DNA from: Aquitalea aquatica
GTDB lineage: Bacteria; Pseudomonadota; Gammaproteobacteria; Burkholderiales; Chromobacteriaceae
NCBI RefSeq assembly: GCF_013911085.1
Contig: NZ_JACERN010000037.1
Span: 1 to 59,722 of the forward strand
DNA: 59,722 nt
Direction: 5' to 3'
The notes beneath the pieces were generated by a model, which was not told the DNA's origin, ran no database searches, and saw only the letters and a list, made by a program, of their open reading frames with translations. A program made the translations under genes and the position numbers. Positions 32,089 through 58,480 of this stretch are shown in pieces; the first letter of the stretch is position 1, and each line of letters begins with the position of its first letter.

Positions 32089-32113
32089 GACACGGGGGCG
32101 GATTGTGGCGACA
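32089..32113 (-). promoter_or_regulatory. Proposed GbdR operator, betB
   Basis: On the minus strand TGTCG starts at 32113 and TGTCG again at 32092: two TGTC direct repeats with a 21-bp period. The proximal repeat is 87 bp upstream of the betB GTG. Orientation is toward betB, as at the other sites. Confidence 0.62.
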
Positions 32114-32158
32114 TGGGGGAGGCGGTGGCCTGCGCTGGTTGCTTGATGCTGGTGGGTA

Positions 32159-32222
32159 GGAATCCGCTTGGCGCGGATGATGGTGTGAATGCCGCTTCCG
32201 CGCGGCGGCCGGGAAGGAGGGA
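32159..32222 (+). repeat. 64-nt repeat module, left copy
   Basis: Shared blocks with 34737-34801, in the same order and spacing: GGAATCCG, GCGGATGATG, TGCCGCTTC, GCGCGGCGG and AAGGAGGG. The first two blocks form a small hairpin (ATCCGC-N5-GCGGAT here). The two copies are direct repeats on either side of the OLD-family gene. Confidence 0.65.
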
Positions 32223-32243
32223 TTGCTTGGCCAATCCCTCCTT
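32214..32243. repeat. 12-bp-stem hairpin inside the left repeat region
   Basis: AAGGAGGGATTG, CTTGGC loop and CAATCCCTCCTT form a perfect 12-bp stem. It has no T-run. It overlaps the end of the 64-nt module and is not conserved in the other copy. Confidence 0.7.
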
Positions 32244-32303
32244 CACCTCCAAGGCCACCCCACAAGCATGGCCTGCGGCTGCCCTCCGGGACCCGACCAG
32301 GGC

Positions 32304-32418
32304 GAGGCGCGCCTGAACTCGCGATTGGCTACCGTCCAATCGCTCAAACAGCCAGCCGCTTAAAACCGCAGCAGCGCCACCCGTCGGCATGCTTGACGGG
32401 GCCCAGGTTTGGCGTTGG
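32304..32418 (+). repeat. Dispersed hairpin repeat, copy 1
   Basis: About 115 nt matching the minus strand of 59603-59722. Identical blocks are a 23-nt block at 32304-32326 (containing GGCGCGCC), AATCGCTCAAACA at 32339-32351, and 30 identical bases at 32376-32405. It folds into two hairpins: GCGATTGG-N7-CCAATCGC (32321-32343) and CCCGTC-N9-GACGGG (32380-32400). The linkers between hairpins vary more than the stems. Confidence 0.8.
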
Positions 32419-32605
32419 TGCGGTGGGAAAGACGGGGAGATGAGGGTTACTTTGTATGGTAAAGCCAATACGGGAAATGGAGTTTCTGGTTTCGACCCTA
32501 AGAGGTCGTTGGCTGCTAGGGAATGCGTCCGCTAATGCTTTGACCAAAGCGGCTCGTTAGCGTGTCCAGCGGCAAAGCCGCGTGCTTGAGCGAGTTGTTG
32601 TCTAA

Positions 32606-34264
32606 CTACTCTGCCACACTTTGTAAGTAATCTGAGTAAAGGTACTCGGACTCAGTAATTATGTTTACAGTCCGACCAAATTTCTCATGCATTGCATTGC
32701 GTAATTCGGCTAGCATGAATTTCCCTAGGCGTTTTTCGGCCGGCAGTGGCACATTCTCTCCCATAAGCGCTAGGGTGTCCGGGGCATTATCACTTTTGTA
32801 AAGCTTCTTCTTTGCCTCGTCACGTTTTCTTGAAAACTTGTGGGCCAGCTTGTTATGCTTAGTCAGGGCAATCTCATCAAGCCATTCACGTATAGTTGCA
32901 GGGTCTTCATCAAGTAAAACTCCAATGTGCTCGGGGATTGCGAAGTAGCTTTCAATATCAGAATATTCAGTAATAAAGGCCTTTGCACCGCATTTTTCTA
33001 TCTTGTCACGTAGAGATTCTTCCTCATCTTTTGTTAGGAAATCATTGTCAGCGTGAATTATTACCGTGCATTCTGGGGCTGATGCCAAAATAAATTCACA
33101 TAGGGAGTAGGCGGAATTTAGGTTGGTAGAAGCCTTGTATGAATATATGAGCGTCCTGGCCATATCGAAGCCAGACCCCTCCGCCAAAATTTTCATCATA
33201 TCGAGGTTTGTGTCCTCAGTTAGGAGGACATGTTTGATTTTTCCATTTATTAACTTGTCGAAACTATCAAGTGCACCAATATCCATAAGCATAGGGACTT
33301 TTTCGAGAGAATTGCCCTGCTCCTGAATTTTTCCACCTTTCATCCAGACAAAATTGGCCTCACCATATAAAGCTTCCACTAGGTGCCTACTGTGTGTGGA
33401 TACGATAATTTTCGTCTCCAAATTTTCGACTAGTGCAACAAATGACGCTGCTAGCAGGCCTTGATTGTCTGGGTGTAAGTGTGAGTCAGGTTCGTCTAAT
33501 AGCAATAGCTTTGGCTTGAAGAGGGTTGCATATGAGAAGATTTGCAATGTTTGAAGTACGCCCGTTCCAATGAGTTCAATGGGTTTTAATGACTGACTGG
33601 TACCTGCCTTAATCAATACTTCTATGTAATTGTCATGAACAGGATCAAATCTGATATCAATAGAAAAATTAGGAAAAATCAGCTTCATCAACTGAATTAA
33701 TTCATTGAGAAGTTTTTTGGTTTTTATTAATAAAAGAACATTTCTCAGATAAAGATTTGCGTCTCCACTTGCAACACCCTTCCTTATAACGCTTTCAGAG
33801 CGATATTCCTCTACTTCTGGAATTCCGGCCAAACCTGGAACATAAACTGAGAATGGCGGGATGAATGCTGTGACCATGGCGCCAATAACCGGATTGCCGT
33901 GTCGTTCGCAGCCAACATTACCTTCGTTTCTTCCGCGATATACGCGGACTGTGTATTGGTCGTCATCACCCTCAACGACTCCCCTTACTCTGAGGTAACC
34001 AAATGCGGATTGGTTTTGATACGGGTCGCCATTGCGAAGGTCAACGAAATTTCTAGCAGGGCAGTAAAGAAGAGACTGTTGGGTGAATGTAACCTTGTCC
34101 AGCCGTCTCGCCGCAACGGCAGCACCAGCGCAAAAATGTATACCTTGGAGCATACTACTTTTGCCAGCGTTATTAGCACCGACCAATACATTTATCTCGC
34201 CCAGATTAATTTCAGCTTTCTGGACCCGCTTGAACCGCTCTACTTCAATGCTAGTGATTTCCAT
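32606..34264 (-). CDS. OLD-family ATPase with TOPRIM nuclease domain
   Basis: A 552-residue protein starting MEITSIEVERFKRVQKAEIN. Walker A is GANNAGKSS (29-37), the OLD signature GTGVLQ is near 233, Walker B is LLLLDEPDSHLHP (253-265), and the H-loop is STHSRH (289-294). The TOPRIM domain follows, with Glu350 and the Asp-x-Asp pair at 405-407 (HADNDF). OLD nucleases act in phage defence, alone (class 1) or with partners as in Gabija; no UvrD-like or other partner lies next to it. The region is visibly AT-rich against its GC-rich neighbours and has different codon use, so it is probably horizontally acquired. A longer frame to 34414 adds no conserved sequence. Confidence 0.88.
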   Translation of the reverse strand: MEITSIEVERFKRVQKAEINLGEINVLVGANNAGKSSMLQGIHFCAGAAVAARRLDKVTFTQQSLLYCPARNFVDLRNGDPYQNQSAFGYLRVRGVVEGDDDQYTVRVYRGRNEGNVGCERHGNPVIGAMVTAFIPPFSVYVPGLAGIPEVEEYRSESVIRKGVASGDANLYLRNVLLLIKTKKLLNELIQLMKLIFPNFSIDIRFDPVHDNYIEVLIKAGTSQSLKPIELIGTGVLQTLQIFSYATLFKPKLLLLDEPDSHLHPDNQGLLAASFVALVENLETKIIVSTHSRHLVEALYGEANFVWMKGGKIQEQGNSLEKVPMLMDIGALDSFDKLINGKIKHVLLTEDTNLDMMKILAEGSGFDMARTLIYSYKASTNLNSAYSLCEFILASAPECTVIIHADNDFLTKDEEESLRDKIEKCGAKAFITEYSDIESYFAIPEHIGVLLDEDPATIREWLDEIALTKHNKLAHKFSRKRDEAKKKLYKSDNAPDTLALMGENVPLPAEKRLGKFMLAELRNAMHEKFGRTVNIITESEYLYSDYLQSVAE

Positions 34265-34736
34265 TGTGTAACCTAGTAATACAACTGGATTGTATGCGGC
34301 AAATCCACCGTCTAATCTGCAAATTACGCTGCCTATTCTGCCAAGAATAAGCGGCAACCCTGCCAATGCTTGATCTAACGGACCAAGTCCGTTGACAAAC
34401 GCAGCAGTCATCACATGTATTGGCGGGCGACTGCTTTTCCGTCACGTGCCAGCTGGCTGCTGATGGCCAACAGCAGCTATGCTATCACATTGACATAATC
34501 TCTTGGCCCGAGTCAGGCCCCTGCTTCATCACCTTTCACGACAGCAAGCATCGCGCTGGCCAAACCCATTCCCGTCAGCGCAAGCCGAGGTGGATGTGCC
34601 GCCCCCTTGTACACCTGCCTGCTATCTCTCCGGTCCATCCCGGCGCAGCAAAAGACAGGGCCACGACGGCGGGGCGAGTGCCGCGAGTTGTCTTTGCCCT
34701 TGATTTTTATGCAGTGTTCGAAGGATTGGGCTGCTG

Positions 34737-34930: not shown

Positions 34931-34951
34931 GACAGTCAGACAAGGGGAGAA

Positions 34952-36565: not shown

Positions 36566-36591
36566 TGTCGGCTGTGGGCAAGTGCTTGTCC
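36566..36591 (+). promoter_or_regulatory. Proposed GbdR operator, soxB (and purU)
   Basis: TGTCGG at 36566 and TGTCC at 36587 are direct repeats with a 21-bp period. The proximal repeat ends 78 bp upstream of the soxB ATG. purU starts 125 bp away on the other side and could share the site. Confidence 0.65.
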
Positions 36592-36668
36592 TTTTCAGCC
36601 AAACGGGATAGGGGAGAGGCCGGGAGAATGGGCCTTGTCCGAATACATCCACCCCGCTGGAGCCGCAG

Positions 36669-37922
36669 ATGGCAAACCGATACTCCTTGTGGAGCCTGAT
36701 CAAGAACGGGCTCAAGCATCATGAAAGCTGGCAGCCGGCCTGGAAAAGCCCGCAGCCGAAGAAGCAGTACGACGTGATCATCGTCGGCGGTGGTGGCCAT
36801 GGCCTGGCCACGGCCTACTACCTGGCCAAGGAACACGGCATCAAGAATGTGGCGGTGCTGGAAAAGGGCTATCTGGGCGGCGGCAATACCGCACGCAACA
36901 CCACCATCATCCGTTCCAATTATCTGTGGGACGAGGCGGCGCACTTGTACGAACACGGCCTGAAGTTGTGGGAAGGCCTGTCGCAGGACCTCAACTTCAA
37001 TGTGATGTTCAGCCAGCGTGGCGTGATGAACGTGGGCCACACCCTGCAGGACATGCGCGACATCGAACGCCGCGCCAATGCCAACCTGCTCAACGGCGTG
37101 GACGCGGTGGTGATGACCCCGCAGGAAATCAAGGACATGGTGCCACTGATCGACATCAGCAACCGTGCGCGCTACCCCATCATGGGCGCCAGCTTCCAGC
37201 CGCGTGGCGGTGTCGCACGGCACGATGCGGTGGCCTGGGGCTTTGCCCGTGGCGCGTCCGAGCTGGGCGTGGACATCATCGAGCAGTGCGAAGTCACCGG
37301 CCTGATCATCGAAGGCGGCCGCATCAAGGGGGTGAATACCAGCCGTGGCGATATCATGGCCGACCGCGTGGGTTGCGTGGCGGCGGGTAATTCCTCGGTA
37401 CTGGCCAAGATGGCCGGGCTGCGCCTGCCGCTGGAAAGCCACCCCTTGCAGGCTTTCGTGTCCGAATCAATGAAGCCCTGCATCGACACCGTGGTGATGT
37501 CCAATGCCGTGCACGGCTATGTCAGCCAGTCGGACAAGGGCGAGCTGGTGATCGGTGCCGGTATCGACAGCTATCTGGGCTATGGCCAGCGCGGCAGCCC
37601 GCATGTGATCGAGCACACCGCCGCCGCCATCATCGAGATGTTCCCGTCCTTCTCCCGCGTGCGCATGAACCGCCAGTGGGGCGGCATTGTGGATGTGTCG
37701 CCGGACGCCTGCCCCATCATCAGCAAAACCCGTATCCAGGGCCTGTATTTCAACTGCGGCTGGGGCACTGGCGGCTTCAAGGCCACCCCCGGCTCGGGCA
37801 ATGTGTTTGCCCACACCATCGCCCATGACGATCCGCACCCGCTGAACCGGGCCTTCTCGCTGGACCGTTTTGCCACCGGACATCTGATCGACGAGCACGG
37901 CGCTGCTGCCGTGGCTCACTAG
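36669..37922 (+). CDS. soxB: Sarcosine oxidase, beta subunit
   Basis: A 417-residue flavoprotein subunit of heterotetrameric sarcosine oxidase. It carries the covalent FMN and the FAD where sarcosine is oxidised to glycine and a methylene group. The dinucleotide loop is [19 protein letters not shown] (about 35-53), followed by the [16 protein letters not shown] segment. The C-terminal [17 protein letters not shown]-like block ([17 protein letters not shown]) closes the FAD site. It is the first gene of soxBDAG; the last upstream feature is a proposed GbdR site. Confidence 0.96.
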
Positions 37923-37932
37923 GGAGAGGCTT

Positions 37933-38226
37933 ATGTTGGTGATTACCTGCCCGTACTGCCAAGAGGCGCGGGAAGAAGAAGAATTCAGCTATGCCGGCGA
38001 AGCCTATATTGCCCGGCCGGCGGTGCCGGAAGAGGCCGACGACGCCACCTGGGGCGACTATGTGTTCCACCGCAAGAATCCGCGTGGCTGGCACTGGGAG
38101 CAATGGCAGCACGTGGCTGGCTGTCGCAAGGTGTTCGCCGTCAAGCGCCATACCGTCACTTATGAAATTGCCGGTTCCTGGACACTGGCCGACGGCAAGG
38201 CACTGTATCTGAAGGAGCAAGCATGA
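37933..38226 (+). CDS. soxD: Sarcosine oxidase, delta subunit
   Basis: A 97-residue zinc-binding structural subunit. The CPYCQEAREEEEF motif at residues 6-18 gives two cysteine ligands. A later His/Cys pair (HVAGCRKVF) completes the zinc site. It follows soxB after 10 bp with a GGGAGAGG ribosome site, and its stop overlaps the soxA start (ATGA). Confidence 0.95.
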   Translation: MLVITCPYCQEAREEEEFSYAGEAYIARPAVPEEADDATWGDYVFHRKNPRGWHWEQWQHVAGCRKVFAVKRHTVTYEIAGSWTLADGKALYLKEQA

Positions 38227-41200
38227 GCGGCTACCGCATCCATCGCCCGGGCGAGCGCATCAATCGCCAGAAACCGGTCAGCTTCCAGTTTGACAATGTG
38301 CAGTACAAGGCTTTTTCTGGTGACACCCTGGCCTCGGCCCTGCTGGCCAACGGCGTGCGCCTGATTGGCCGCAGCTTCAAGTATGGCCGGCCGCGCGGCA
38401 TCGTCGGCTTTGGTGCCGAAGAACCCAATGCGCTGATCCAGCTGGAAACCGGCGCCCATACCGTGCCCGACCTCAAGGCCACGCAAGTGGAGCTGTACCA
38501 GGGCCTGCTGGCCGGCAGCACCACCGGCTATCCCTCGCTGGATTTCGACCTCAAGGGCCTCTTGGGCAAGTTTGGCCGCTTCATGCCGCCCGGCTTTTAC
38601 TACAAGACCTTCATGGAGCCGGTGAAAGCCTGGCCCGTTTACGAGAAATACATCCGCAAGGCGGCGGGTTACGGCCATGCCCCGGTCTTGCCCGATCCGG
38701 AAAGCTACGACCACCTGCACCATCATATTGATGTGCTGGTGGTGGGCGGCGGCGCTGCCGGCCTGTGGGCGGCCACGCTGGCTGGCCGTGCCGGCCTGAA
38801 AACCCTGCTGGTGGACGAACAGTCCGAAATGGGCGGCTGGCTGCTGACCGAGCGTCGCAGCCGTATTGACGGCCTGTCCGGCATGGACTGGGTGAACCAG
38901 CGTCTGGCCGAACTGGCCAGCCTGCCCAATGTCAGCGTGTTGCCGCGCACGACGGCTTTTGCCTTGCATGATCTGAACCTGGTGCAGGCGGTGGAACTGC
39001 TGCAAGACCACCTGCCGCTGACCGAGCGCAATGCCGCGCTGCCACGCCAGCGTCTGCACAAGATCCGCGCCCATCAGGTGATTCTGGCCAGCGGTGCCAT
39101 CGAACGCCCGCTGGTGTTTGGCTATAACGACGTGCCCGGTGTGATGACTGCCGCTGCCGGTCACAGCTATCTCAACCGTTACGGCGTAGCTGTGGGCCGC
39201 GAAGTGCTGGTGCAAACCCAGAACGATGCCGCCTACGAAGCCGCGCTGGACCTGGCGCAGTGCGGGGTCAAGGTGATGCTGGCCGATGCCCGGCAGGGCG
39301 GGGCGGCGGCATGGCGGCAACAGGCGTTGAAGAGTGCTGGTGTCGAGCTGCTGCTGGGCCATGGCATTGCCAAGGTGCTGGGCGACAAGAGCGTCAGCGG
39401 CGCGCAGCTGGTGAAGCTGGATGGCCGCAACAATCAGGTGGTCGGCTCCGGTCCGCGCCTGAGTGTGGATACCGTGCTGTCCTCCGGCGGCCTCACCTCT
39501 ACTGTCCACCTGTTCTGCCACAACGGTGGCCGCCCAGTGTGGAATCAGCAGCAGCTGTCCTTTGTCTGCCCGGATGAAGGCCGCGACAATATCGCCTGTG
39601 TTGGTGCCATTACCGGCCGCTGGGAGCTGTCCGAGGCGCTGGGCCAGACCCACGCCGCCGTGGCTGCCCTGTTGCTGGGCCACGGCCGTGGCAGCAGCGG
39701 CAATGCGCCCAGCGTCGCCAGCGAAGAAGTGGCCGCCCCGCGCGCCATCTTCCGCCTGCCGGATGGCAAGCCGGAAGGCCATGGTGCCAAGGCCTTTGTC
39801 GACTACCAGAACGATGTGGCCGCCGCCGACATCCACACCGCCATTCGCGAAAACTACCGCTCCATCGAACACGTCAAGCGCTACACCGCGCTGGGCTTTG
39901 GTACGGATCAGGGCAAGCTGTCCAATATCAATGGTTTTGCCATTGCTGCCGAAGCACTGGGCAAACCCATTGCCGAGGTGGGCACCACCACCTACCGCCC
40001 GTCCTACACCCCGGTCACCTTCGGGGCTCTGGCCGGGCCGCATGTGGGCGAAACCTTCGATGTGCGCCGCTACACCGCCATGCATGCCAGCCATGATGCG
40101 CGCAAGGCCGAGTACGAAGTGGTGGGCCAGTGGCTGCGCCCCTGGTACTTCCCCAAACCGGGCGAGGACCTGCATGCCGCAGTGAACCGCGAATGCCTGG
40201 CCACCCGTAACAGCGTGGGGGTGATGGATGCCTCCACCCTGGGGAAGATCGACGTCAAGGGCCCGGATGCGCGGGAATTCCTCAACCGCATCTACAGCAA
40301 TGCCTGGAGCAAGCTCGACCCCGGCAAGTGCCGCTACGGCCTGATGCTGGATGAGAACGGCATGGTGATGGACGACGGCGTGACCGCCTGCCTGGCAGAC
40401 GACCACTTCCACATGACCACCACCACCGGTGGTGCAGCACGGGTTTACAGCTGGCTGGAACGCTGGCACCAGACCGAATGGCCGGAGCTGAAAGTACGCT
40501 TTACCACCACCACCGACCACTGGGCCACGGTGGCCGTGGTGGGGCCGAACAGCCGCCAGGTGCTGCAAAAGCTGTGCACGGACATCGACTTCGACAAGGA
40601 CGCCTTCAAGTTCATGGATGGCCGCAGCGGCACCGTGGCCGGCCTGCCGGCACGGGTGTTCCGCATCAGCTTCTCCGGTGAACTGGCTTACGAAATCAAC
40701 GTGGATGCCAACTATGGCCGCTACATGTGGGAAGAAGTGATGAAGGCGGGTGCCGCGTTCAACATCACTCCCTACGGCACCGAAACCATGCACGTGCTGC
40801 GTGCCGAGAAGGGCTTCATCATCGTCGGTCAGGATACCGACGGCTCGATGAGCCCGAACGATCTGGCCATGAGCTGGGCTGTCGGCATGAAAAAGCCGTT
40901 CAGCTTCCTCGGCAAGCGTTCGCTGCTGCGCTCGCACACCGCAGGTGAAGGCCGCAAACAGCTGGTGGGCCTGCTGCCGCTGGACCCGAAAGTGGTGCTG
41001 GCCGAAGGCGCGCAGATTCTCAGCAATACCGATGACACGGTGCCGGCTGCCATGCAGGGCCATGTCACCTCCAGTTATCACAGTGCCTTCCTTGGCCGCT
41101 CCATTGCCATGGCTGTGTTGAAGGATGGCAGCAAGCGTGAGGGCGACACGGTGTTCGTCTGGGCGCATGGCAAGAGTGTGCCGGCGCAGGTGGTGTCGTC

Positions 41201-41240
41201 AGTATTCGTGGACAAGGAAGGGGTGCGTCAACATGCCTAA
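38223..41240 (+). CDS. soxA: Sarcosine oxidase, alpha subunit
   Basis: A 1005-residue subunit. The N-terminal ~100 residues form the ferredoxin-like lobe (SFKYGRPRGIVGFG). A Rossmann NAD+/FAD domain begins near residue 170 (VLVVGGGAAGLWAATLAGRA). The C-terminal ~400 residues are a GcvT-like aminomethyltransferase domain that binds THF and traps the methylene group as 5,10-methylene-THF (GFIIVGQDTDGSMSPNDL region). Length matches the family. The end overlaps soxG by 8 nt. H2O2 is the by-product when O2 is the acceptor. Confidence 0.96.
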   Translation: MSGYRIHRPGERINRQKPVSFQFDNVQYKAFSGDTLASALLANGVRLIGRSFKYGRPRGIVGFGAEEPNALIQLETGAHTVPDLKATQVELYQGLLAGSTTGYPSLDFDLKGLLGKFGRFMPPGFYYKTFMEPVKAWPVYEKYIRKAAGYGHAPVLPDPESYDHLHHHIDVLVVGGGAAGLWAATLAGRAGLKTLLVDEQSEMGGWLLTERRSRIDGLSGMDWVNQRLAELASLPNVSVLPRTTAFALHDLNLVQAVELLQDHLPLTERNAALPRQRLHKIRAHQVILASGAIERPLVFGYNDVPGVMTAAAGHSYLNRYGVAVGREVLVQTQNDAAYEAALDLAQCGVKVMLADARQGGAAAWRQQALKSAGVELLLGHGIAKVLGDKSVSGAQLVKLDGRNNQVVGSGPRLSVDTVLSSGGLTSTVHLFCHNGGRPVWNQQQLSFVCPDEGRDNIACVGAITGRWELSEALGQTHAAVAALLLGHGRGSSGNAPSVASEEVAAPRAIFRLPDGKPEGHGAKAFVDYQNDVAAADIHTAIRENYRSIEHVKRYTALGFGTDQGKLSNINGFAIAAEALGKPIAEVGTTTYRPSYTPVTFGALAGPHVGETFDVRRYTAMHASHDARKAEYEVVGQWLRPWYFPKPGEDLHAAVNRECLATRNSVGVMDASTLGKIDVKGPDAREFLNRIYSNAWSKLDPGKCRYGLMLDENGMVMDDGVTACLADDHFHMTTTTGGAARVYSWLERWHQTEWPELKVRFTTTTDHWATVAVVGPNSRQVLQKLCTDIDFDKDAFKFMDGRSGTVAGLPARVFRISFSGELAYEINVDANYGRYMWEEVMKAGAAFNITPYGTETMHVLRAEKGFIIVGQDTDGSMSPNDLAMSWAVGMKKPFSFLGKRSLLRSHTAGEGRKQLVGLLPLDPKVVLAEGAQILSNTDDTVPAAMQGHVTSSYHSAFLGRSIAMAVLKDGSKREGDTVFVWAHGKSVPAQVVSSVFVDKEGVRQHA

Positions 41241-42952: not shown

Positions 42953-42958
42953 AGCTTG

Positions 42959-45820: not shown

Positions 45821-45835
45821 GCCGGGAGTCGCCCC

Positions 45836-47896: not shown

Positions 47897-47897
47897 C

Positions 47898-49787: not shown

Positions 49788-49849
49788 GGCGGGCCGGGGC
49801 AGGGTGCTGCTGCACCACCTGGTTCGACCATCCTTACAAGGAGAATGTG

Positions 49850-50950
49850 ATGGATTTTTCTACCCAGGCCATTCCGCGCATCGACCCGCGTCGCCCGTGG
49901 GTGCTGGGGCCCAGCGGCCTCAAGCGCATTGTGCTGGGCGATGACAGCGGCAGCCGCGATGCCGCCCTGCTGGCCCACGGCCCGGCCCACAAGCCGCTGC
50001 GCAGTAGCGGGCCGTTCAGCCAGCGCCTGCTGGTGGTGGCCCATGCCGAGCGCGGCCAGCTGGATGATGCGGCCCGCGAAGCCATCGCCGCCGCCGCCAT
50101 TCTGGCGGGCAAGGACGGCGAAGTACTGGCCTTGCTGTACGGCATGCAAGACGCTGCGCCGGAAGCGCTGGCCGAGCTGGCGGTGGACCGCGCCCTGACC
50201 GTGGCCGACCCCGGTTATGCGCCGGAACAGAAACTGGCCTTGCTGCAACAACTGCTGCAGCAGGAAAGCCCGCATACCGTGCTGTTTGCCGACCGTAGCG
50301 AGGATGCTGACCTAGGGCGACGTCTGGCCTGCCGCGCCCGGCTGTCGGTGGTGACGGATGTGGTGGAAATTGCCGCTGATGGAGTGCGCCGTCGCCAGCC
50401 CGGTGCCGGTTTCAGCCTGCGTGAGCGCGCACAAGTGCTGTTGTTGGCGCGCGGAGTGGCCGAGGCCAAGCTGCCCTTTGTCGGCAAGGGCGAGCGGCTG
50501 CAAACCGCTGCCTTGCCTGCCATCAGCGAACAGGTGCAGGACCTGGGCAGTGCCGCCAGTCCGGCTTCGCAGTTGGCGCTGGAAGAGGCCGACCTGATTG
50601 TGTCTGCGGGTAATGGCGTCAGTAATGTGCCGGGCTTTCTGGCGCTGGCCGAAGCGCTGGGCGCTGCCGTGGGTGCGTCCCGCGTGGCGGTGGACGATGG
50701 CCGCTTTAGCCGCGACAAGCAGGTGGGGGCCACCGGCAAGACAGTGCAGGCCAGTGCCTATATCGCGCTGGGCATTTCCGGTGCGGTACAGCACCTGCAG
50801 GGCATCAAGTCCTGTCGTCATGTGATTGCGGTGAACCTGGATGCGGCAGCCCCCATGATCAAGCGTGCCGACCTCAGCATCATCGACGACTGCCAGTCCT
50901 TCATCAGCGCATTCGAGGCGCTGGTGCGGCGCGAGCGTAATTTAGTCTGA
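49850..50950 (+). CDS. etfA: Electron transfer flavoprotein, alpha-type subunit
   Basis: A 366-residue ETF alpha (FixB-like) subunit dedicated to the dgc pathway. The FAD-binding C-terminal domain contains DKQVGATGKTVQASAYIALG and ISGAVQHLQGIKSCRHVIAV, with the alpha-type IKRADLSIIDD end. An N-terminal extension of about 55 residues precedes the ETF domain. ATG 49850 has AAGGAG 6 nt upstream; GTG 49847 is one codon earlier. A palindromic element separates it from etfB. Confidence 0.9.
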   Translation: MDFSTQAIPRIDPRRPWVLGPSGLKRIVLGDDSGSRDAALLAHGPAHKPLRSSGPFSQRLLVVAHAERGQLDDAAREAIAAAAILAGKDGEVLALLYGMQDAAPEALAELAVDRALTVADPGYAPEQKLALLQQLLQQESPHTVLFADRSEDADLGRRLACRARLSVVTDVVEIAADGVRRRQPGAGFSLRERAQVLLLARGVAEAKLPFVGKGERLQTAALPAISEQVQDLGSAASPASQLALEEADLIVSAGNGVSNVPGFLALAEALGAAVGASRVAVDDGRFSRDKQVGATGKTVQASAYIALGISGAVQHLQGIKSCRHVIAVNLDAAAPMIKRADLSIIDDCQSFISAFEALVRRERNLV

Positions 50951-50953
50951 GGC

Positions 50954-51072
50954 AAATCTCGCGAGCTAGAGTGAGACAAGGCGGAAACGCGTGAGGAAGC
51001 CGAGTTTACATGCGCGTAAATGAGCATTCCGAAGGCGTTTTTAACGCAGTATCACCGAAGCGCAGCAGATTT
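50954..51072. repeat. Palindromic MITE-like element between etfA and etfB
   Basis: The ends are AAATCT and AGATTT. The centre is TTTAC-ATGCGC-GTAAA (51005-51020). The arms are imperfectly complementary over the whole 119 nt (for example GTGAGAC on the left against GTATCAC on the right, and GGAAGCC against GCATTCC). It starts 3 nt after the etfA stop and ends before the etfB ribosome site. It encodes no protein. Confidence 0.78.
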
Positions 51073-51093
51073 CGGCTTTAAGGAGACACTGAA

Positions 51094-51840
51094 ATGAAAA
51101 TAGCCGTATTGATTGCCCCCGCCGTGCATCCGGTCAGTGGCCGGCCCTGTGCCGGCGAGGCCGATCTGGCCGCACTGGCACTGGCGCAGCGCCTGTCGTC
51201 CCAGGTGGATGTCTGGTATGCCGGAGCCGCCGACGATGCCGCGCTGGCCGACTATCTGGCGCGCGGTGCCACACATATCCACACTCTGGCACTGGCGGCG
51301 GGCCGCGAGGTACTGAGCCCCCTGGCCGAGGCCCTGCAGGATTACGCCTTGGTGCTGTGTGGCGCTCGTGCCGGTGGCGGCGATGGCTCCGGCCTGCTGC
51401 CCTATCAACTGGCCGAACAGCTGGGCCGAGCCTTGTTGCCGGATGTACTCGACTTGTCGAAATCCGACCAGCAATGGCAGGCGCTACAGGCGCTGCCCAA
51501 GGGTGTGCGGCGCACACTGGCGGCCAAGCTGCCGCTGGTAGCCAGTGTCCATGCCCGTGCGGCCAGTGCTGTCGGCTGGAGTTATGCCCGGCTGCAACAG
51601 GGCAAGATCCAGCGCAAAGCCGCCACTGGCGCGGCCTTGCCCCAGGTGGTGCTGGAGCCGGCCCGCCGCGCGCGGGCGCTGGTGGCTGCCAGTAAGGTCA
51701 GCGGCCATGCCCGCATGCAGGGTGCCATTGCCGGGGGCGAAGGCAAGTCGGCCGGGATAGTCGTAAAACAGGGTGATTCTGTCGAGAAAGCGCAAGTTGT
51801 GCTGGATTACCTCAGGCAACATCAGCTCGTCGATTTCTGA
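51094..51840 (+). CDS. etfB: Electron transfer flavoprotein, beta-type subunit
   Basis: A 248-residue ETF beta-like subunit pairing with the upstream alpha subunit. It keeps the Rossmann-like start MKIAVLIAPAVHPVSG and the nucleotide-site GARAGGGDGSGLLPYQLAEQ, but is divergent from housekeeping EtfB. This is typical of the dgc-linked ETF. AAGGAGA precedes ATG 51094. It accepts electrons from DgcA and hands them on, probably to DgcB. Confidence 0.88.
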   Translation: MKIAVLIAPAVHPVSGRPCAGEADLAALALAQRLSSQVDVWYAGAADDAALADYLARGATHIHTLALAAGREVLSPLAEALQDYALVLCGARAGGGDGSGLLPYQLAEQLGRALLPDVLDLSKSDQQWQALQALPKGVRRTLAAKLPLVASVHARAASAVGWSYARLQQGKIQRKAATGAALPQVVLEPARRARALVAASKVSGHARMQGAIAGGEGKSAGIVVKQGDSVEKAQVVLDYLRQHQLVDF

Positions 51841-51921
51841 CAACAACCCCGCAGCATCCGACCAGCACCCCACCCACCGGCTCGCAGGATGCAAACCAAG
51901 ACTTGTTTGGAGATGAGTGAA

Positions 51922-53187
51922 ATGCAACAGAGCGCCATTACCTTCCAGCCGGTGCACAAACTGCGCGAGCTGGTCGCCCGCCGCCAGCCGGGCCATAGCC
52001 TGGAAGCGCCGTTTTACAATTCGCAGGAGGTGTTCGAGGCCGACCTCAAATACATCTTCCAGCGTCACTGGATTTATGTGGCGGTAGCGGCGGAAATCCC
52101 CGAGCCGGGCGACTATGTCACCGTGGAGATCGGCAAGGAACCCATCCTGATCCTGCGCGACGACGACATGCAGATCAAAGCCTTCCACAATGTCTGCCGT
52201 CATCGCGGCTCGCGCCTGTGTGCCGATGAAAAAGGCTCGGTGGGCAACCTGGTCTGTCCTTATCACCAGTGGACCTACAACCTGGCCGGCAAGCTGATTT
52301 TTGCCGACCACATGCCGGAAGGCTTCGACCTGACGCACCACAGCCTGAAGCCGGTGCATCTGAAAAACCTGGAAGGCCTGTTGTTTGTCTGTCTGGCCGA
52401 CGAGCCGCCGGCCGACATCGACCAGATGCTGGAGCAGATGGGCCCCTATATCGCCCCGCACCAGATCGAAAACACCAAGGTAGCTGCCCAGATCGACATC
52501 ATCGAGGCCGGTAACTGGAAGCTGACGATGGAGAACAACCGCGAGTGCTACCACTGCACCGGCAACCATCCCGAGCTGACCATCTCGCTGTATGCCTACA
52601 GCTACGGCTTTGCCCCCAAGGCCGAACTGGCGGCTGGCCTCGCCAATTACGAAAACATCGTCAAGGACAGCCATGCGCGCTGGGAGGCCTGTGGCCTGCC
52701 GTCGGCGGAAATCGAAAAGCTGTCCGATGTGTCTGGCTTCCGTACCATGCGCATGCCGCTGGACCGCAAGGGCCAGTCGCAAACCATGGACACCGGCGCA
52801 GCCTGCAAGAAGCTGTTGGGCGACATCAAGGACGCGGATTCGGGTGGCCTGTCCTTCTGGACGCAGCCCAACTCCTGGCACCATTTCATGGCCGACCACA
52901 TCGTCACCTTCACCGTGCTGCCGCTGAGCCCGGACACCACCCTGGTGCGTACCAAGTGGCTGGTGCACAAGGACGCGGTGGAAGGCGTGGATTACGACGT
53001 GGCCAACCTCACCCGCGTGTGGAACGCCACCAACGGCCAGGATCGCCATCTGGTGGAAGAGTCGCAAGTGGGTGTCAACAGCAGTGCCTACCGTCCCGGC
53101 CCTTACTCGCCCTATACCGAAGAACTGGTGGAAAAATTTACCAGCTGGTATATCGGCCGTATGGAAGCCGGCCTGGAGCAGGGATAA
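51922..53187 (+). CDS. gbcA: Glycine betaine demethylase, oxygenase component
   Basis: A 421-residue Rieske non-haem iron oxygenase removing one methyl group from glycine betaine as formaldehyde, yielding dimethylglycine. The Rieske cluster is Cys92-x-His94 and Cys112-x2-His115 (VCRHRGSRLC, CPYHQWTYN). The mononuclear iron site includes His212 and His217 (ENNRECYHCTGNH). ATG 51922 (MQQSAITF) has GGAGA 9 nt upstream; ATGs at 51889 and 51913 are in frame. It lies 81 bp after etfB and probably in the same transcript. Confidence 0.94.
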   Translation: MQQSAITFQPVHKLRELVARRQPGHSLEAPFYNSQEVFEADLKYIFQRHWIYVAVAAEIPEPGDYVTVEIGKEPILILRDDDMQIKAFHNVCRHRGSRLCADEKGSVGNLVCPYHQWTYNLAGKLIFADHMPEGFDLTHHSLKPVHLKNLEGLLFVCLADEPPADIDQMLEQMGPYIAPHQIENTKVAAQIDIIEAGNWKLTMENNRECYHCTGNHPELTISLYAYSYGFAPKAELAAGLANYENIVKDSHARWEACGLPSAEIEKLSDVSGFRTMRMPLDRKGQSQTMDTGAACKKLLGDIKDADSGGLSFWTQPNSWHHFMADHIVTFTVLPLSPDTTLVRTKWLVHKDAVEGVDYDVANLTRVWNATNGQDRHLVEESQVGVNSSAYRPGPYSPYTEELVEKFTSWYIGRMEAGLEQG

Positions 53188-53258
53188 GCCTGCATCGTGC
53201 GCTCTGCTGCTGCAGAACCCGGGCGCAGCAGGCCGTGAACCTTTATTGAGGCAGTACG

Positions 53259-53281
53259 CGGCAGGCCAGTTTGGCCTGCCG
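53259..53281. other. Hairpin between gbcA and gbcB
   Basis: CGGCAGGCCA-GTT-TGGCCTGCCG, a 10-bp stem without a T-run, in the 149-bp gbcA-gbcB gap. A second inverted repeat (CTGCTGC/GCAGCAG) lies near 53211-53238. They may tune relative expression or mRNA stability. Confidence 0.5.
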
Positions 53282-53336
53282 TATTCACCACAGCAACAGC
53301 CCCCAAAGGGCGATCTGCCCGTGTCGAGGACCAACC

Positions 53337-54452
53337 ATGACCAGCGCAAGCATACCCAGCAGCCCGGACTATCACCCGCAGCCGGCCGATCTGCCGCTGT
53401 GGGATCTTGCCGAAGACAGCACGCTGCAGTGCGTGCAGGTGCGGGAAGAAACGCACGATGTCAAAACCTTTGTTTTCCGCGCCGATCCGCCGCGCCGCTT
53501 TCATTACCAGCCCGGCCAGTTCATCACGCTGGAGCTGGAAATAAACGGCGAAAACATCAATCGCTGCTACACCCTGTCGTCTTCTCCCACCCGGCCTGAC
53601 CGGGTCAGCATTACCGTCAAGCGCATCCCTGGTGGCGTGGTGTCGGGCTGGCTGCATGACAGCCTGCGGCCCGGCATGCAGCTGAATGTGCTGGGACCGT
53701 CCGGTGAATTCACCTATGTGCGCCATGCCAGCACGCCCTATCTGTTCTTGTCTGCCGGTAGCGGCATCACCCCGCTGATGTCGATGAGCCGCGCGCTGAC
53801 CGATCTGGCCAGCGGCGCAGATATCGTGTTCGTACACAGCGCCCGCTCTCCGCGTGACATCATTTTCCGCAAGGAGCTGGCCCAGCTAGCGAGCAGCCAT
53901 CCCACTTTCAGCCAGGCCATTGTCTGTGAAAACCGCCAGGGCGAACCGGAATGGCCGGGTTTTACCGGCCGACTGGATGCCGCCCGTCTGCTGCACATGG
54001 TGCCGGACCTGATGGCGCGCCAGGTGTTCTGCTGCGGCCCGGCACCCTATATGGCTTCGGTGCGACAGCTGCTGCAGGACTGTGGCTTTGACATGCAGCA
54101 CTACCACGAAGAGAGCTTCAATTTTGCCGAGCTGGCCGCCGCCGCGCCGGATGAGGCGGTGGACGAAATCTCAGCCAGCTGCGAGGGCGGTGGCTTTAAT
54201 GTGCACTTTGCCAAGATGGGCGACGATTTGTCGGTGGCTCCCGGCCAGACCGTGCTGGCCGCCGCGTTGGCCAAGGGCATGCGTTTGCCGGCTTCCTGCA
54301 CGCGTGGCGTGTGTGGTACCTGCAAGACCAAATTGCTGGAAGGCAAGGTGGACATGCAACACGAAGGTGGCATTCGCCAGCGCGAGGTTGATCAGGGCTA
54401 TTTCCTGCCTTGCTGTAGCAAGCCGTTGACCGATCTGGTGGTCGACCGCTGA
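53337..54452 (+). CDS. gbcB: Glycine betaine demethylase, reductase component
   Basis: A 371-residue ferredoxin-NADH reductase feeding electrons to GbcA. The FAD domain has RCYTLSSSPTRPDRVSI. The NAD domain has LSAGSGITPLMSM and CCGPAPYM. The C-terminal plant-type [2Fe-2S] domain has CTRGVCGTCKTK plus the last cysteine in LPCCSKP. ATG 53337 has GAGG upstream and matches the domain start; a longer frame to 53271 crosses the hairpin. A terminator follows. Confidence 0.94.
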   Translation: MTSASIPSSPDYHPQPADLPLWDLAEDSTLQCVQVREETHDVKTFVFRADPPRRFHYQPGQFITLELEINGENINRCYTLSSSPTRPDRVSITVKRIPGGVVSGWLHDSLRPGMQLNVLGPSGEFTYVRHASTPYLFLSAGSGITPLMSMSRALTDLASGADIVFVHSARSPRDIIFRKELAQLASSHPTFSQAIVCENRQGEPEWPGFTGRLDAARLLHMVPDLMARQVFCCGPAPYMASVRQLLQDCGFDMQHYHEESFNFAELAAAAPDEAVDEISASCEGGGFNVHFAKMGDDLSVAPGQTVLAAALAKGMRLPASCTRGVCGTCKTKLLEGKVDMQHEGGIRQREVDQGYFLPCCSKPLTDLVVDR

Positions 54453-54743: not shown

Positions 54744-54769
54744 TGTCGTTTCAAGACAGCTTGATGTCG
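54744..54769 (+). promoter_or_regulatory. Proposed GbdR operator, choVW
   Basis: TGTCG at 54744 and TGTCG at 54765, direct repeats with 21-bp period. TATTTTGAAT starting 11 bp downstream could be a -10 region. The choV ATG is 449 bp further on. Confidence 0.6.
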
Positions 54770-55218
54770 GAATGCGGTTATTTTGAATACCACTAACTCC
54801 CTAAGGTGAGCCTTGATTTACATTAAATATTCTTCGAAATCGTCTGCTGCGCAAAGGATGCCTTGTTGGCTGGTGCCAAGCATCCGCTCGCCGCGATTCG
54901 CCCGCTCACGGCAGCATCTGCCGCACGGGTGACGGCCATGGGGAATAGACGACAGGCCGGCGTCACCGGACGCTGTGTGCAATGGGGTGCTGCGTTGCAC
55001 ACCGATCTGCCAGGCCAGCCTGGCACGCATGTATGAGATGGCCCGGAGCAAGGCACGACGCATCCGGGTAAACCACAGTACTGGCCGGCAGCAGCGCTGC
55101 CGTGCCGGACACGATGGATGACTTTCTGTTGCACAAGACTCCAGTACCCCGGACAGCGGTGAATGGAGCAGGTAGCAGGATAGGGCCAGCGTGCGATCGC
55201 TACGAAGGAGAAGAGACA

Positions 55219-56268
55219 ATGCAGTCGGCCAAGATAGTGGTGAAGAACCTCTACAAGGTATTCGGAGGGAAGTCCGCAGACGTCATGCGCATGCTGAAGT
55301 CTGGCGAGCACAAGGATGAGATTTTCAAGAAAACCGGCAGCGTCGTGGGGGTCAACGACGTGTCGTTTGCGGTGGAAGAGGGCGAGATCTTCGTGCTGAT
55401 GGGCCTGTCGGGCTCCGGCAAATCCACCTTGATCCGCCTGATCAACCGCCTGATGGACCCTACCGATGGCCAGATCATTCTGGACGGTCAGGACATCACC
55501 AAGCTTACGCCCAAGCAGATGGTTGAGCTGCGTCGGCGCGACATGAGCATGGTATTTCAGAGCTTTGCCCTGATGCCGCACCGCTCGGTGCTGGATAACG
55601 CCGCTTTCGGGCTGGAAATTTCCGGGGTAGACCGCAAGGCACGTGAAGCCCGTGGCATGGAGGTACTGGAGCAAGTGGGCCTGGCCCCGTTTGCGCACAA
55701 GTATCCGCATGAACTGTCCGGTGGCATGCAGCAGCGGGTTGGCCTGGTGCGCGCGCTGGCGGTCAACCCGTCACTGATGCTGATGGACGAAGCCTTCTCG
55801 GCGCTGGACCCGCTCAAGCGCTCGGAAATGCAGGACATCCTGCTGGATCTGCAGCGCGAACAGCGCCGCACCATTTTCTTTGTTTCGCATGATCTGGAAG
55901 AGGCCCTGCGTATCGGTACCCGCATCGCCATCATGGAAGGCGGGCGGCTGGTACAGGTGGGTACGCCGCAGCAAATCATCGAAAACCCGGCGGACGACTA
56001 CGTGCGCAACTTCTTCAAGAGCGTGGATACCTCGCGCTATCTGCAAGCCAAGGACCTGATCGAAGTGGCCAATCCGCCGCACTCCGGCCGGCCTGGTCTG
56101 CATGTGCCGCCGTCCTGCAGCCTGCCCGATGTGTTGCAGCAGTTGCTGGGACAGAGCGAACCCTTGCAGGTGCGCGACGATCAGGGCCAGTGCCTGGGGC
56201 TGATTACGCCCAGCAGCGTGCTGAGCAAGATTTCCCAGCACCGCCTGCAAAGCACCGCCACCCACTGA
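55219..56268 (+). CDS. choV: Choline/betaine ABC transporter ATP-binding protein
   Basis: A 349-residue ProV/ChoV-type ATPase. Walker A is GLSGSGKST (about residues 60-68), signature LSGGMQQRVG, Walker B LMLMDEAFSALDP. The N-terminal ~45 residues precede the core as usual in betaine transporters. The C-terminal tail has a CBS-like segment. ATG 55219 has GAAGGAGAAG upstream; a frame from 55102 is not conserved. choW follows after 81 bp. Confidence 0.93.
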   Translation: MQSAKIVVKNLYKVFGGKSADVMRMLKSGEHKDEIFKKTGSVVGVNDVSFAVEEGEIFVLMGLSGSGKSTLIRLINRLMDPTDGQIILDGQDITKLTPKQMVELRRRDMSMVFQSFALMPHRSVLDNAAFGLEISGVDRKAREARGMEVLEQVGLAPFAHKYPHELSGGMQQRVGLVRALAVNPSLMLMDEAFSALDPLKRSEMQDILLDLQREQRRTIFFVSHDLEEALRIGTRIAIMEGGRLVQVGTPQQIIENPADDYVRNFFKSVDTSRYLQAKDLIEVANPPHSGRPGLHVPPSCSLPDVLQQLLGQSEPLQVRDDQGQCLGLITPSSVLSKISQHRLQSTATH

Positions 56269-56349
56269 ACCGGACAACAGGCAGACCGTGCCATCCCCGT
56301 GCCACCGTGCCGGGAAGGTATGTGAGCCGCAGCGAAGGAGTACGCCGTC

Positions 56350-57216
56350 ATGGCTGATATCAGCACGCAAGACATGTTGCCGATTGGCGACTGGGTCAAC
56401 AAGGTCATTCATTTCATGCTGGACCACAACGCCGGGGCTTTCGACGCCATCGGCAATACCATCGACTGGTTTGCCACCATGGTGGAATTCCTGTTGCTGG
56501 GCATTCCTCCGCTGGTGATGGGAGCGATTTTCGCCGGAGTCGGTTTCTGGCGGCTGGGCTGGAAGTTTGCCCTGTTCGTCTGTGCCGCGCTGGGGCTGAT
56601 CTGGGCCACCGGCTTCTGGGGCCAGACCATCGCCACGCTGGCACTGACCTTGTCTGCCACCTGTGTCAGCCTGCTGCTGGGGGTGCCGGTGGGCATCTGG
56701 TGTGCGCGCAACAAGCTGGTGGGCATGCTGGTGCGCCCGGTGCTGGACTTCATGCAGACCATGCCGGCCTTTGTCTACCTGATTCCGGCCGCCATGTTCT
56801 TTGGCCTGGGCCGGGTGCCCGGCATTCTGGCTACGGTGGTGTTTGCCGTACCGCCGGCCGTGCGCCTGACCAGCCTGGGCATCCGCATGGTGAACAAGGA
56901 ACAGGTGGAAGCCGGCCATGCCTTTGGCTGTACCTCCTGGCAGCTGTTGTTCAAGGTGCAGCTGCCCATCGCGCTGCCGTCCATCATGGCTGGGGTCAAC
57001 CAGACCATCATGATGGCGCTGTCGATGGTGATCATCGCCTCCATGGTGGGCGCGGGTGGCCTGGGCAACGACGTACTGGCCAGTATCCAGCGACTGGATG
57101 TGGGCTTAGGTTTTGAAAGTGGTCTGGCGGTGGTGCTGCTCGCCATCATTCTGGACCGCATTACCGAGAGTTTCGGCCATACGCCCACCACGCGGGCGGC
57201 CGAGCAGGGCAGCTAG
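56350..57216 (+). CDS. choW: Choline/betaine ABC transporter permease
   Basis: A 288-residue ProW-type inner-membrane permease. About seven hydrophobic segments follow an N-terminal soluble part. The EAA loop is seen as EAGHAFGCTSWQLLFKVQLP (about 192-211), which contacts the ATPase. AGGAG precedes the ATG 56350. gbdR follows after 94 bp on the same strand. Confidence 0.93.
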   Translation: MADISTQDMLPIGDWVNKVIHFMLDHNAGAFDAIGNTIDWFATMVEFLLLGIPPLVMGAIFAGVGFWRLGWKFALFVCAALGLIWATGFWGQTIATLALTLSATCVSLLLGVPVGIWCARNKLVGMLVRPVLDFMQTMPAFVYLIPAAMFFGLGRVPGILATVVFAVPPAVRLTSLGIRMVNKEQVEAGHAFGCTSWQLLFKVQLPIALPSIMAGVNQTIMMALSMVIIASMVGAGGLGNDVLASIQRLDVGLGFESGLAVVLLAIILDRITESFGHTPTTRAAEQGS

Positions 57217-57310
57217 CGGCGGGTGAGTACCCGGCCGGGCCGCGCGGCGTGTCCGCTGCGGCCTCCTTCATACAAAAACAGATCAACACACATCACATGC
57301 CGAGGTCACC

Positions 57311-58297
57311 ATGGGTCCGCAACAAATCGCATCGTTGTCGCATATTGGTTTCCTCTTGCTCGACAGGTTTTCCATGATCGCCTTCTCCAATGCCGTGGAG
57401 CCGCTGCGCATGGCCAATTATCTGTCACGCAAGAAGTTGTATCGCTGGAGCCTGCTATCGGCCGATGGTCAGCCGGTCGCCGCCAGCAATGGTCTGGAAC
57501 TCTCCCCCATCACTGCTCCCGAAGCCCCGCAGCAGTACGACATGCTGATTGTCTGTGGCGGCTGGCAGGTACGCGAAGCGGTGGACGACAAGGTGGTTTC
57601 CGTCATCCGCCGTTTCGCGGCACAGGGTGTGCCGCTGGGCGCCATCTGTACCGGTACCTTCGCCCTGGCCAAGGCTGGGGTGCTCAATGGCTACCGCTGT
57701 GCCATCCACTGGGAAAACCTGCTGTCCATCAGCGAGGAATTCCCCAAGACCAAATTCACTTCCGATCTGTTCGTGCTGGATCGCGACCGCTTTACCTGTA
57801 GTGGCGGCACCGCGCCGCTGGATTTCATGTGTCACCTGATCCGCCACAAGGGCGGCAAGAGCCTGGCGGCCGATGTGTCCGAGCAGTTCATCGTCGACCG
57901 CCTGCGCGACAATGGCGACCGCCAGCATATCCCGCTGCTGGCGCGTATCGGCACCGGCCATGAAACACTGGTGGATGCCGCGCTATCGATGGAAAGCAAT
58001 ATCGAAAACCCGCGTTCGCTGGAGAATCTGGCCGACGAACTGGGCGTGTCCTTGCGTCACCTGGAGCGGCTGTTCAAGCGTTATCTCAACACCACGCCGG
58101 CGCAGTATTACCTGGATTTACGCCTGCGCCGTGCGCGTGAACTCTTGCTGCAAACCAATATGAGCGTGATGGAAGTCACCGTGGCCTGTGGCTTTTTGTC
58201 CTCCTCGCATTTTTCCAAATCCTATCGCGGCCTGTTCGGCTACCCGCCCAGTCGTGAGCGCCAGCAGTATCTGGTGGACTCCGCGGTCATCGCCTGA
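57311..58297 (+). CDS. gbdR: AraC-family activator of betaine catabolism, GbdR-like
   Basis: A 328-residue regulator. Residues about 10-190 form a GATase1/DJ-1-like domain with an elbow-type Cys in LGAICTGTFALAKAG. The C-terminal ~100 residues carry two AraC helix-turn-helix units (LENLADELGVSLRHLERLFK and VMEVTVACGFLSSSHFSKSY). This domain order is that of GbdR and the related CdhR/ArgR group. Location inside the choline transporter locus supports GbdR. It is expected to sense glycine betaine or dimethylglycine and to bind the TGTC-N17-TGTC sites. Confidence 0.9.
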   Translation: MGPQQIASLSHIGFLLLDRFSMIAFSNAVEPLRMANYLSRKKLYRWSLLSADGQPVAASNGLELSPITAPEAPQQYDMLIVCGGWQVREAVDDKVVSVIRRFAAQGVPLGAICTGTFALAKAGVLNGYRCAIHWENLLSISEEFPKTKFTSDLFVLDRDRFTCSGGTAPLDFMCHLIRHKGGKSLAADVSEQFIVDRLRDNGDRQHIPLLARIGTGHETLVDAALSMESNIENPRSLENLADELGVSLRHLERLFKRYLNTTPAQYYLDLRLRRARELLLQTNMSVMEVTVACGFLSSSHFSKSYRGLFGYPPSRERQQYLVDSAVIA

Positions 58298-58454
58298 GTT
58301 GCTGGGCGGCAAAACCGGCAGCTTGTGGTCGTTGCCAGCTCTGTTACTCCTTGCAGGGCTGGCTTTTTTTCTACGGCGCATTCATGCAAGTGGCGGTCGT
58401 GCTGGCGCAAGTCCCGCTGCGCCTGCGTGGCACTCTTGGCTGGTGTCGGTTCCA

Positions 58455-58480
58455 TGTCCAAGCTGCGTGGCCGCATGTCC
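58455..58480 (+). promoter_or_regulatory. Proposed GbdR operator, choX
   Basis: TGTCC at 58455 and TGTCC at 58476, direct repeats with 21-bp period, ending 64 bp before the choX ATG. A further TGTCGG lies at 58444. Confidence 0.6.

Follow-up and report, generated by a model that had tools for sequence, protein, structure and literature searches.

A direct-repeat operator with fixed promoter geometry at the betaine genes of Aquitalea aquatica and its relatives, putatively read by a GbdR-type activator

For the analysis of the betaine gene cluster of Aquitalea aquatica, we used a window of 59,722 nucleotides (contig NZ_JACERN010000037.1). The cluster contains betA, betB, purU, the sox genes, a DUF5943-dgc-etf operon, gbcA, gbcB, choV, choW, the gene of a GbdR-type regulator and choX, which together form a route from choline uptake towards glycine. 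Its promoters share an operator built of two half-sites of 16 bp each, in which KGTCS is followed by CA(A/G) after about one helical turn. The half-sites are separated by 5 bp and form a direct repeat at 21 bp. A -10-like hexamer is located 21 bp downstream of the operator. We predict that a GbdR-type activator common to the betaine promoters uses these repeats as its distal and proximal half-sites, and assign a probability of roughly 0.85 to this reading. It is supported by the conservation of the sites, their period, the spacing to the -10 element and the co-occurrence of the targets with the regulator.

Operator architecture and conservation

A preliminary description of this stretch had proposed pairs of the form TGTC-N17-TGTC as the mark of the betaine promoters. 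The exact pairs at 32089-32113 (minus strand) and at 36566-36590, 54744-54768 and 58455-58479 (plus strand) were confirmed, and each points at the named gene (betB, soxB, choV and choX, respectively). The pair at 45177, upstream of the dgc operon, contains one mismatch (GGTC) as claimed. A further pair at 45127 is indeed weaker (TGTC-N17-GGTC); the dgc upstream alignment is poorly conserved around it, and it was rejected as an operator. As a rule for the regulon, the short pattern failed. It occurs 246 times in the genome (4.457 Mb) and the reversed control 274 times, therefore the short rule alone cannot mark the regulon and was discarded for genome scans. Equally good pairs are also present in coding regions, as 4 of the 8 pairs in the window (15955, 18153, 42075 and 47573) are located inside likely genes. 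The 8 pairs compare with 3.3 expected from the genome density (P 0.02), the 6 pairs between 32089 and 58480 with 1.5 (Poisson P 0.004), and dinucleotide shuffles of the window gave 1.21 pairs on average and 5 at most. Three pairs in five 200-bp promoters correspond to P 3e-6, a post hoc value that includes the choX pair now taken for chance. The repeats are real, and TGTC-N17-TGTC is a fragment of the signal.

For footprinting, upstream regions were aligned from the clusters of the 20 genomes, out of 61 of the family, that carry a GbdR ortholog (at least 76% identity). The soxB alignment contains a near-invariant block, TGTCG-N7-GGCAA or GACAA ... YGTCC-TTTYCARYCAA, followed by GAGAAT or GACAAT, and the same arrangement is found in the alignments of dgc, choV, choX and betB. 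Weighted by genus, positions G2, C4 and G5 of half-site 1 are invariant (frequency 1.00 for C4 and G5), while C14 and A15 reach 0.93 and 0.86; in half-site 2, G2, T3 and C4 are invariant. The choV site was identified in all 20 genomes with the ortholog (15 by automatic placement, 5 by matrix), as was the soxB site (13 + 7; in G059 in only one of two copies). The dgc site is present in 17 of 17 genomes with the upstream region in the data, and G006 contains a sequence that matches it in its letters and may be a further dgc site. The choX site was found in 16 of the 20 genomes, and a [TGC]GTC[GC] pair at 21 bp precedes betB in all 15 genomes that contain this gene. Some promoters are absent from these counts owing to short contigs (G006, G008 and G046). 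Automatic placement failed for betB of G054 and choX of G045, which were both placed by hand from the alignment, and for choV of G043 and the four Chromobacterium genomes (G010, G014, G015 and G022), in which the matrix later found the site with TATCTT or TATCGT at 21 bp. In relatives, these two hexamers thus occupy the -10 place that TAAGGT has in A. aquatica. The sites are thus kept across genera, and the target genes follow the regulator: betB occurs in 15 of the 61 family genomes, all with the GbdR ortholog, and soxB in 21, of which 20 have it (at the thresholds used).

The conserved choX operator (58374-58410) reads CGGCG...GCAA / GGTCG...GCAA, and an exact search for TGTC therefore overlooks it. 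The pair at 58455 is exact in only one of the 20 genomes (G000), is probably due to chance and was rejected as the functional choX site. The betB(A) operator is the weakest by sequence, with CAA absent from its distal half. The assignment to GbdR made in the preliminary description stands in its core, given the AraC-family GbdR-type gene in the cluster, the strict 21-bp period, the conservation across genera and the targets that follow the ortholog, but the site extends beyond TGTC-N17-TGTC, the conserved choX site is another one than the proposed pair, and a sixth, probable site had been overlooked. What goes beyond that description is the CA(A/G) of half-site positions 14-16, the constant spacing to the -10 element and the candidate inside etfB.

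Direct KGTCS pairs peak at a period of 21 (14.2 of 25 promoter-by-genus classes), with at most 2.5 at the other periods from 8 to 44. In control genes, 3.6 of 47 classes were counted at period 21 and 3.8 at period 9. The controls of this and of the control-score test are not clean, since gbcA, with the etfB-internal candidate upstream of it, was among them. When the matrix was built from four promoters and applied to the fifth, the aligned site was the best in 400 bp for soxB in 13/13, dgc in 16/17, choX in 16/16, choV in 14/15 and betB in 1/7 cases. The 95% quantile of control scores (730 scores, from five matrices applied upstream of ten other genes) was exceeded in 13/13, 11/17, 15/20, 1/20 and 0/7 cases, respectively, where 5 of the 20 choV windows missed the site. 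Recovery is good for soxB, dgc and choX, weak for choV and hardly given for betB, and the control-quantile results imply that choV and betB are supported less by shared sequence than by conservation and geometry. The -10 score, which did not enter the matrix, has its maximum exactly 21 bp behind half-site 2 (4.67; mean 1.70, standard deviation 0.69, next best 2.67). The stricter pattern KGTCGN7RCARN5KGTCS has 10 matches in the genome, three of which are the soxB, dgc and choV sites (P 3e-5, post hoc).

The matrix was also applied to sequences outside the training set. The soxB promoters of three Pseudogulbenkiania genomes (G045, G046 and G047) scored 30.2 each and those of two genomes of the genus Vogesella (G054 and G059) 18.4 each, compared with 12.0 for 99% of the null windows; this null comprised 2820 windows (maximum 31.4) with only the training sites masked, so that true sites are among them. 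No site was found in the two soxB copies of another lineage, namely in G035, which has no GbdR ortholog (-2.3), and in the second copy of G045, in which the ortholog is present (2.5). For betB in G043, G045, G046, G047 and G059, the pair is the best site (8.3-15.3). In 21 kb of Leeia, likewise not used for training, the two best matches are those of choX (rank 1) and choV (rank 2), and in Janthinobacterium choV has rank 2 and choX rank 4. Two further genomes, G425 and G332, were taken as Pseudomonas-type, with regulators above the NCBI GbdR cut-off (629 and 623 bits). Here the gbcA and gbcB sites of G425 rank 4 and 5 in 78.5 kb and the gbcB site of G332 ranks 2, all with CACAAT or CAGAAT at 21 bp.

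Additional copies of such sites were seen in some relatives. In the four Chromobacterium genomes the fourth-best match (14.2-16.4) follows choX (in G010:C10 at stitched position 35018). In G010 it precedes an open reading frame (ORF) of a zinc-type dehydrogenase, by eye like formaldehyde dehydrogenase, and TAGCAT is located at 21 bp in G010 and G022, the two genomes inspected for it. If a GbdR-type site regulates this ORF, formaldehyde removal would be coupled to betaine breakdown. The alignments also contain extra repeat-like DNA upstream of the dgc operon and choX in Chromobacterium (L084, L086 and L088). A second copy of a dgc-type operator was identified in G002 (L067 12609-12672, with a similar leader) and in G007:C18:263835; by eye, the ORF that it precedes resembles an MFS transporter and the next one a dipeptidase.

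Candidate operator inside etfB

In the last 26 codons of etfB, upstream of gbcA, GTCG pairs at 21 bp are present, with CAA ending the proximal half-site. CAACAT, CACCAT or GACCAT follows 21 bp beyond the pair, and this whole arrangement is found in 18 of 18 family genomes with this stretch in the data (gbcA of G008 was left out, having no upstream sequence). In Leeia, GAACAT takes the -10 place. From codon 223 of etfB, 8 of the 15 positions with an invariant amino acid are also invariant in their codon, where invariance means one codon in all ten representatives including Leeia. The remainder of etfB gives 1 of 51, and eight other genes together give 255 of 1722. By the cruder measure of codon identity in 18-codon windows, the 3' stretch of etfB ranks 6th of 218. 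The matrix score of the candidate is modest (3.6-11.8) because its distal half lacks CAA. In 10 of 18 genomes the candidate is the best site within 400 bp; in G000 it scores 3.7 and is not the best. The element is probably a sixth operator, placed before gbcAB. It may be that the GbdR-type regulator uses one rigid grammar (two 16-bp half-sites separated by 5 bp, then 21 bp to the -10 element) kept from Pseudomonas-type bacteria to Neisseriales, and that an operator and a -10 element inside etfB, with frozen codon choice, allow gbcAB to be switched separately from the preceding operon; for this combined proposal we see even odds.

The regulator, its paralogs and rival explanations

The regulator contains a DJ-1/PfpI-like domain and an AraC helix-turn-helix domain, it is linked to choline and betaine genes, and it is the best GbdR match of its own genome (400 bits), followed by two paralogs with 340 and 326 bits. 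An AraC-type domain carries two helix-turn-helix motifs, and two recognition elements about one turn apart are expected. Each 16-bp half-site would be read by the two motifs of one such domain, and two subunits would be bound in the same orientation with an offset of 21 bp. The -10 element follows 21 bp after the end of the proximal half-site (roughly -49 to -34), where the protein would overlap or replace a poor -35 element. This corresponds to class II activation by AraC-family proteins, which could take place when a metabolite of the betaine pathway is present. The offset-21 peak fits a constant -10 distance, with the proximal half-site at or near -35 of the predicted starts. The genes switched on by this one code would be those for choline uptake (choX, and choVW together with gbdR), betBA, the dgc operon, the sox genes and, probably, gbcAB. 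GbdR binding, activation, the inducer and the transcript limits are what we infer from this arrangement. AraC at araI1-I2 likewise uses two directly repeated half-sites of about 17 bp with a 21-bp period, and its proximal half-site overlaps -35; the core sequence and the sensor domain are different. For P. aeruginosa, a review names glycine betaine as GbdR inducer and favours dimethylglycine (PMC3170909).

The two paralogs are 43% and 40% identical to the regulator. The one at C20:19281 adjoins an amino-acid ABC transporter (by eye), the other at C46:149072 adjoins L-carnitine dehydrogenase. From this context and the gene order in Pseudomonas, we take them to be ArgR-like and CdhR-like, respectively. 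The ARG box of ArgR in P. aeruginosa and P. alloputida is TGTCGCN6GNAA in tandem with a separation of 5 bp (PMC10963909), i.e., 16-bp half-sites at a 21-bp period with a similar core; in contrast, position 6 is not fixed to C here, position 14 is mostly C, and betaine rather than arginine genes are concerned. The CdhR operator of P. aeruginosa caiX consists of GGTCGC half-sites with a 15-bp spacer (PMC5806209) and shares the 21-bp period. Its authors regard CdhR sites as very similar to those of GbdR, SouR and ArgR and describe CdhR as a class I activator (PMC5806209). CdhR serves carnitine genes, whereas the 21-bp distance to the -10 element here suggests class II. The site rule, presented in the preliminary description as coming from this sequence, had thus been anticipated in period and core by the published ArgR and CdhR sites. 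For P. aeruginosa GbdR, a change of C-G to A-A in the distal half-site (GCCGC to GCAAC) abolished binding (PMC5806209, PMC3900636). By our own alignment, this change would correspond to positions 4-5 of half-site 1, which are invariant here. Direct-repeat half-sites and a conserved C-G in the distal half, as in a GbdR operator, are both found. Regulator type, pathway genes and direct-repeat half-sites are common to the P. aeruginosa GbdR regulon, and Pseudomonas-type gbcA and gbcB promoters match the matrix made here. In contrast, gene order and promoter set are different, with gbcAB behind etfB and the candidate site inside etfB, and the regulator is about 48% identical to Pseudomonas-type GbdR. 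Among titles and abstract beginnings no paper on GbdR sites in Chromobacteriaceae was found, which is a weak negative, and no GbdR passage was found in the text of the HT-SELEX atlas.

Several observations weigh against control by GbdR. The regulator reaches 398.4 bits with the NCBI GbdR equivalog NF052371, below the curated cut-off of 480; the name of this model marks it as Pseudomonas-based. By context the regulator is GbdR-type and it probably works like GbdR, yet by rule it is no member of this equivalog. Nine Aquitalea regulators are 98-100% identical, and the sampled genomes are related. No recognisable site was found upstream of choX in the four Chromobacterium genomes, and the second soxB copy of G059 fails with 4.6, so that the site is missing in one of two copies. 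In G425 and G332, the nine best matches include neither soxB nor dgc, and in five other genomes of the class (G215, G326, G153, G203 and G318) no match among the best nine falls in the 600 bp before a mapped gene. To this come the shortfalls at the control quantile, betB being hardly predicted from the other promoters, and a control region upstream of purU in G009 with an unexplained mean of 11.5 with the operator matrices. The -10 hexamers had been noticed by eye before the offset scan. Genome-wide, KGTCGN7RCARN5KGTCS is not enriched (10 matches, 39 for the reversed control), neither is the consensus at up to 3 mismatches (50 matches, 50 in the control; gene context inspected for two of them outside the window), and genomes with and without the ortholog appear alike by eye in their totals of the stricter pattern. 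The best extra consensus match, C1:279341, was dropped, as it lies within the start of an ORF resembling pyruvate formate-lyase (by eye). In the failing copy of G059 (L225), a degraded operator, GGACG...CACG / TGTCT, is seen with AACAAT kept at the -10 place.

The sites are unlikely to belong instead to one of the two paralogs from this DJ-1/AraC subfamily (ArgR-like, CdhR-like) or to be common to all three regulators. Both paralogs occur in the same genome and may bind similar DNA, which is a further point against GbdR as the sole reader; the helix-turn-helix regions of the three proteins are alike, the published ArgR and CdhR sites have the same period, and P. aeruginosa CdhR binds the GbdR target cbcX (PMC5806209). 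However, the target genes are betaine genes, and relatives at E of at most 1e-60 occur in 60 of the 61 family genomes, yet betB and all but one soxB-bearing genome follow the GbdR ortholog. An ARG-box-like tandem pair near the ArgR-like gene (L249 9762, minus strand, contig C20) scores only 5.3 with the GbdR matrix, and in its second half GGAAA takes the place of the NCAA of GbdR sites. TACAAT is located 21 bp downstream of that pair, i.e., the same geometry with other half-site bases. A repeat at G000:C6:102547-102583 (minus strand), upstream of speA and pointing away from it, is perhaps of the ArgR type; sequences resembling it occur in several Aquitalea genomes.

That GbdR-type control would be an illusion of chance pairs, a short word at 21 bp obtained by looking in many promoters, is very improbable. 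The 246 genome-wide pairs do not exceed the reversed control, half of the pairs in the window lie in likely genes, and the pair at 58455 is such a case; against this stand the period-21 peak, the leave-one-gene-out recovery, the constant -10 offset and the untrained matches in other families, by which chance is largely refuted for soxB, dgc, choX and choV. For betB, it is conceivable but rather doubtful that the proximal element is read by a different, symmetric regulator, as it forms an inverted repeat GTGTC-N7-GACAC. The flanks of this repeat match in G000 (GTGTC/GACAC) and G009 (CTGTC/GACAG), the distal half-site is without CAA and leave-one-out recovery is low, but its outer bases do not pair in G054, the pair at 21 bp is kept in every genome with betB, and a -10-like element follows 21 or 22 bp downstream.

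Features of the window and significance

The mapped sites and genes are listed in Table 1. The choV start is probably at about 55219; a leader of about 410 nt (54808-55218) precedes it in Aquitalea and is shorter in several other genera. The likely start of the DUF5943 gene, the first of the dgc operon, was placed at 45287 from the DUF5943 match, which begins at residue 17, and a preceding AGGAGA. None of the dgc family models matched in this operon. A second gene of a choline/betaine-binding protein (OpuAC) is located at 43145-44002 (plus strand), without an exact TGTC pair upstream in 13 of 13 genomes. Between purU and betB, an AAA ATPase ORF (32606-34414, minus strand) weakly resembles defence ATPases of the OLD/AriA type. 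It has no match of at least 55% identity in the other 19 cluster stretches, some of them short, and was therefore probably inserted. Rfam gave nothing in the window at the gathering threshold.

Table 1. Operators and genes mapped in the window (coordinates of the window)
Feature	Position	Strand	Details
soxB operator	36566-36602	+	Half-sites TGTCGGCTGTGGGCAA and TGTCCTTTTCAGCCAA, 5-bp spacer; -10-like GAGAAT 36624-36629
dgc operon operator	45177-45213	+	Half-sites GGTCGGTATGGGGCAA and TGTCGTGCCCGCTGCA; -10-like CACCAT 45235-45240
choV(W-gbdR) operator	54744-54780	+	Half-sites TGTCGTTTCAAGACAG and TGTCGGAATGCGGTTA; -10-like TAAGGT 54802-54807
Conserved choX operator	58374-58410	+	Half-sites CGGCGCATTCATGCAA and GGTCGTGCTGGCGCAA; weak -10-like ACTCTT 58432-58437
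betB(A) operator	32077-32113	-	Half-sites TGTCGCCACAATCCGC and TGTCGGCTTTTGACAC; -10-like CTAAAT 32055-32050
Candidate gbcAB operator inside the etfB 3' end	51759-51795	+	Half-sites AGTCGTAAAACAGGGT and TGTCGAGAAAGCGCAA; -10-like CAACAT 51817-51822
choX TGTC-N17-TGTC pair of the preliminary description	58455-58479	+	Exact in 1/20 genomes (G000); probably chance
gbdR-type regulator	57311-58297	+	DJ-1/PfpI-like domain (PF01965, DJ-1_PfpI) and AraC DNA-binding domain (PF12833, HTH_18); NCBIfam NF052371
betB, betaine-aldehyde dehydrogenase	30539-32002	-	NF009725, 755 bits; start chosen from homologs
betA, choline dehydrogenase	28622-30337	-	TIGR01810, 869 bits
sox genes	36669-41916	+	soxB 36669-37922, soxA 38223-41240, soxG about 41125-41916; TIGR01373 and TIGR01372 above cut-off, TIGR01375 below
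DUF5943 gene, dgcA-like, dgcB-like, etfA-like and etfB-like genes	45287-51840	+	dgc names by context
gbcA, gbcB, glycine betaine monooxygenase	51889-54452	+	NF058607, 502 bits, and NF058606, 398 bits; best matches, both below cut-off
choV, choW, choline ABC transporter	55102-57216	+	TIGR01186 above cut-off; TIGR03416, 352 bits (cut-off 363)
choX, choline-binding protein	58543-59482	+	TIGR03414, 466 bits

The kind of regulon and the operator architecture are already known, and the comparison of genomes extends both, as a prediction, to Chromobacteriaceae. This study adds the mapping in this family, a corrected choX site, the constant distance to the -10 element and the candidate inside etfB. 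A loose four-base rule is thereby turned into a testable operator with fixed promoter geometry, which aids the prediction of betaine regulons in Chromobacteriaceae and their neighbours. The etfB candidate points to a regulated promoter hidden within a gene. GbdR-, ArgR- and CdhR-like paralogs with near-identical published site architecture coexist in one genome, and what separates the three becomes testable, for example at half-site positions 6 and 14.

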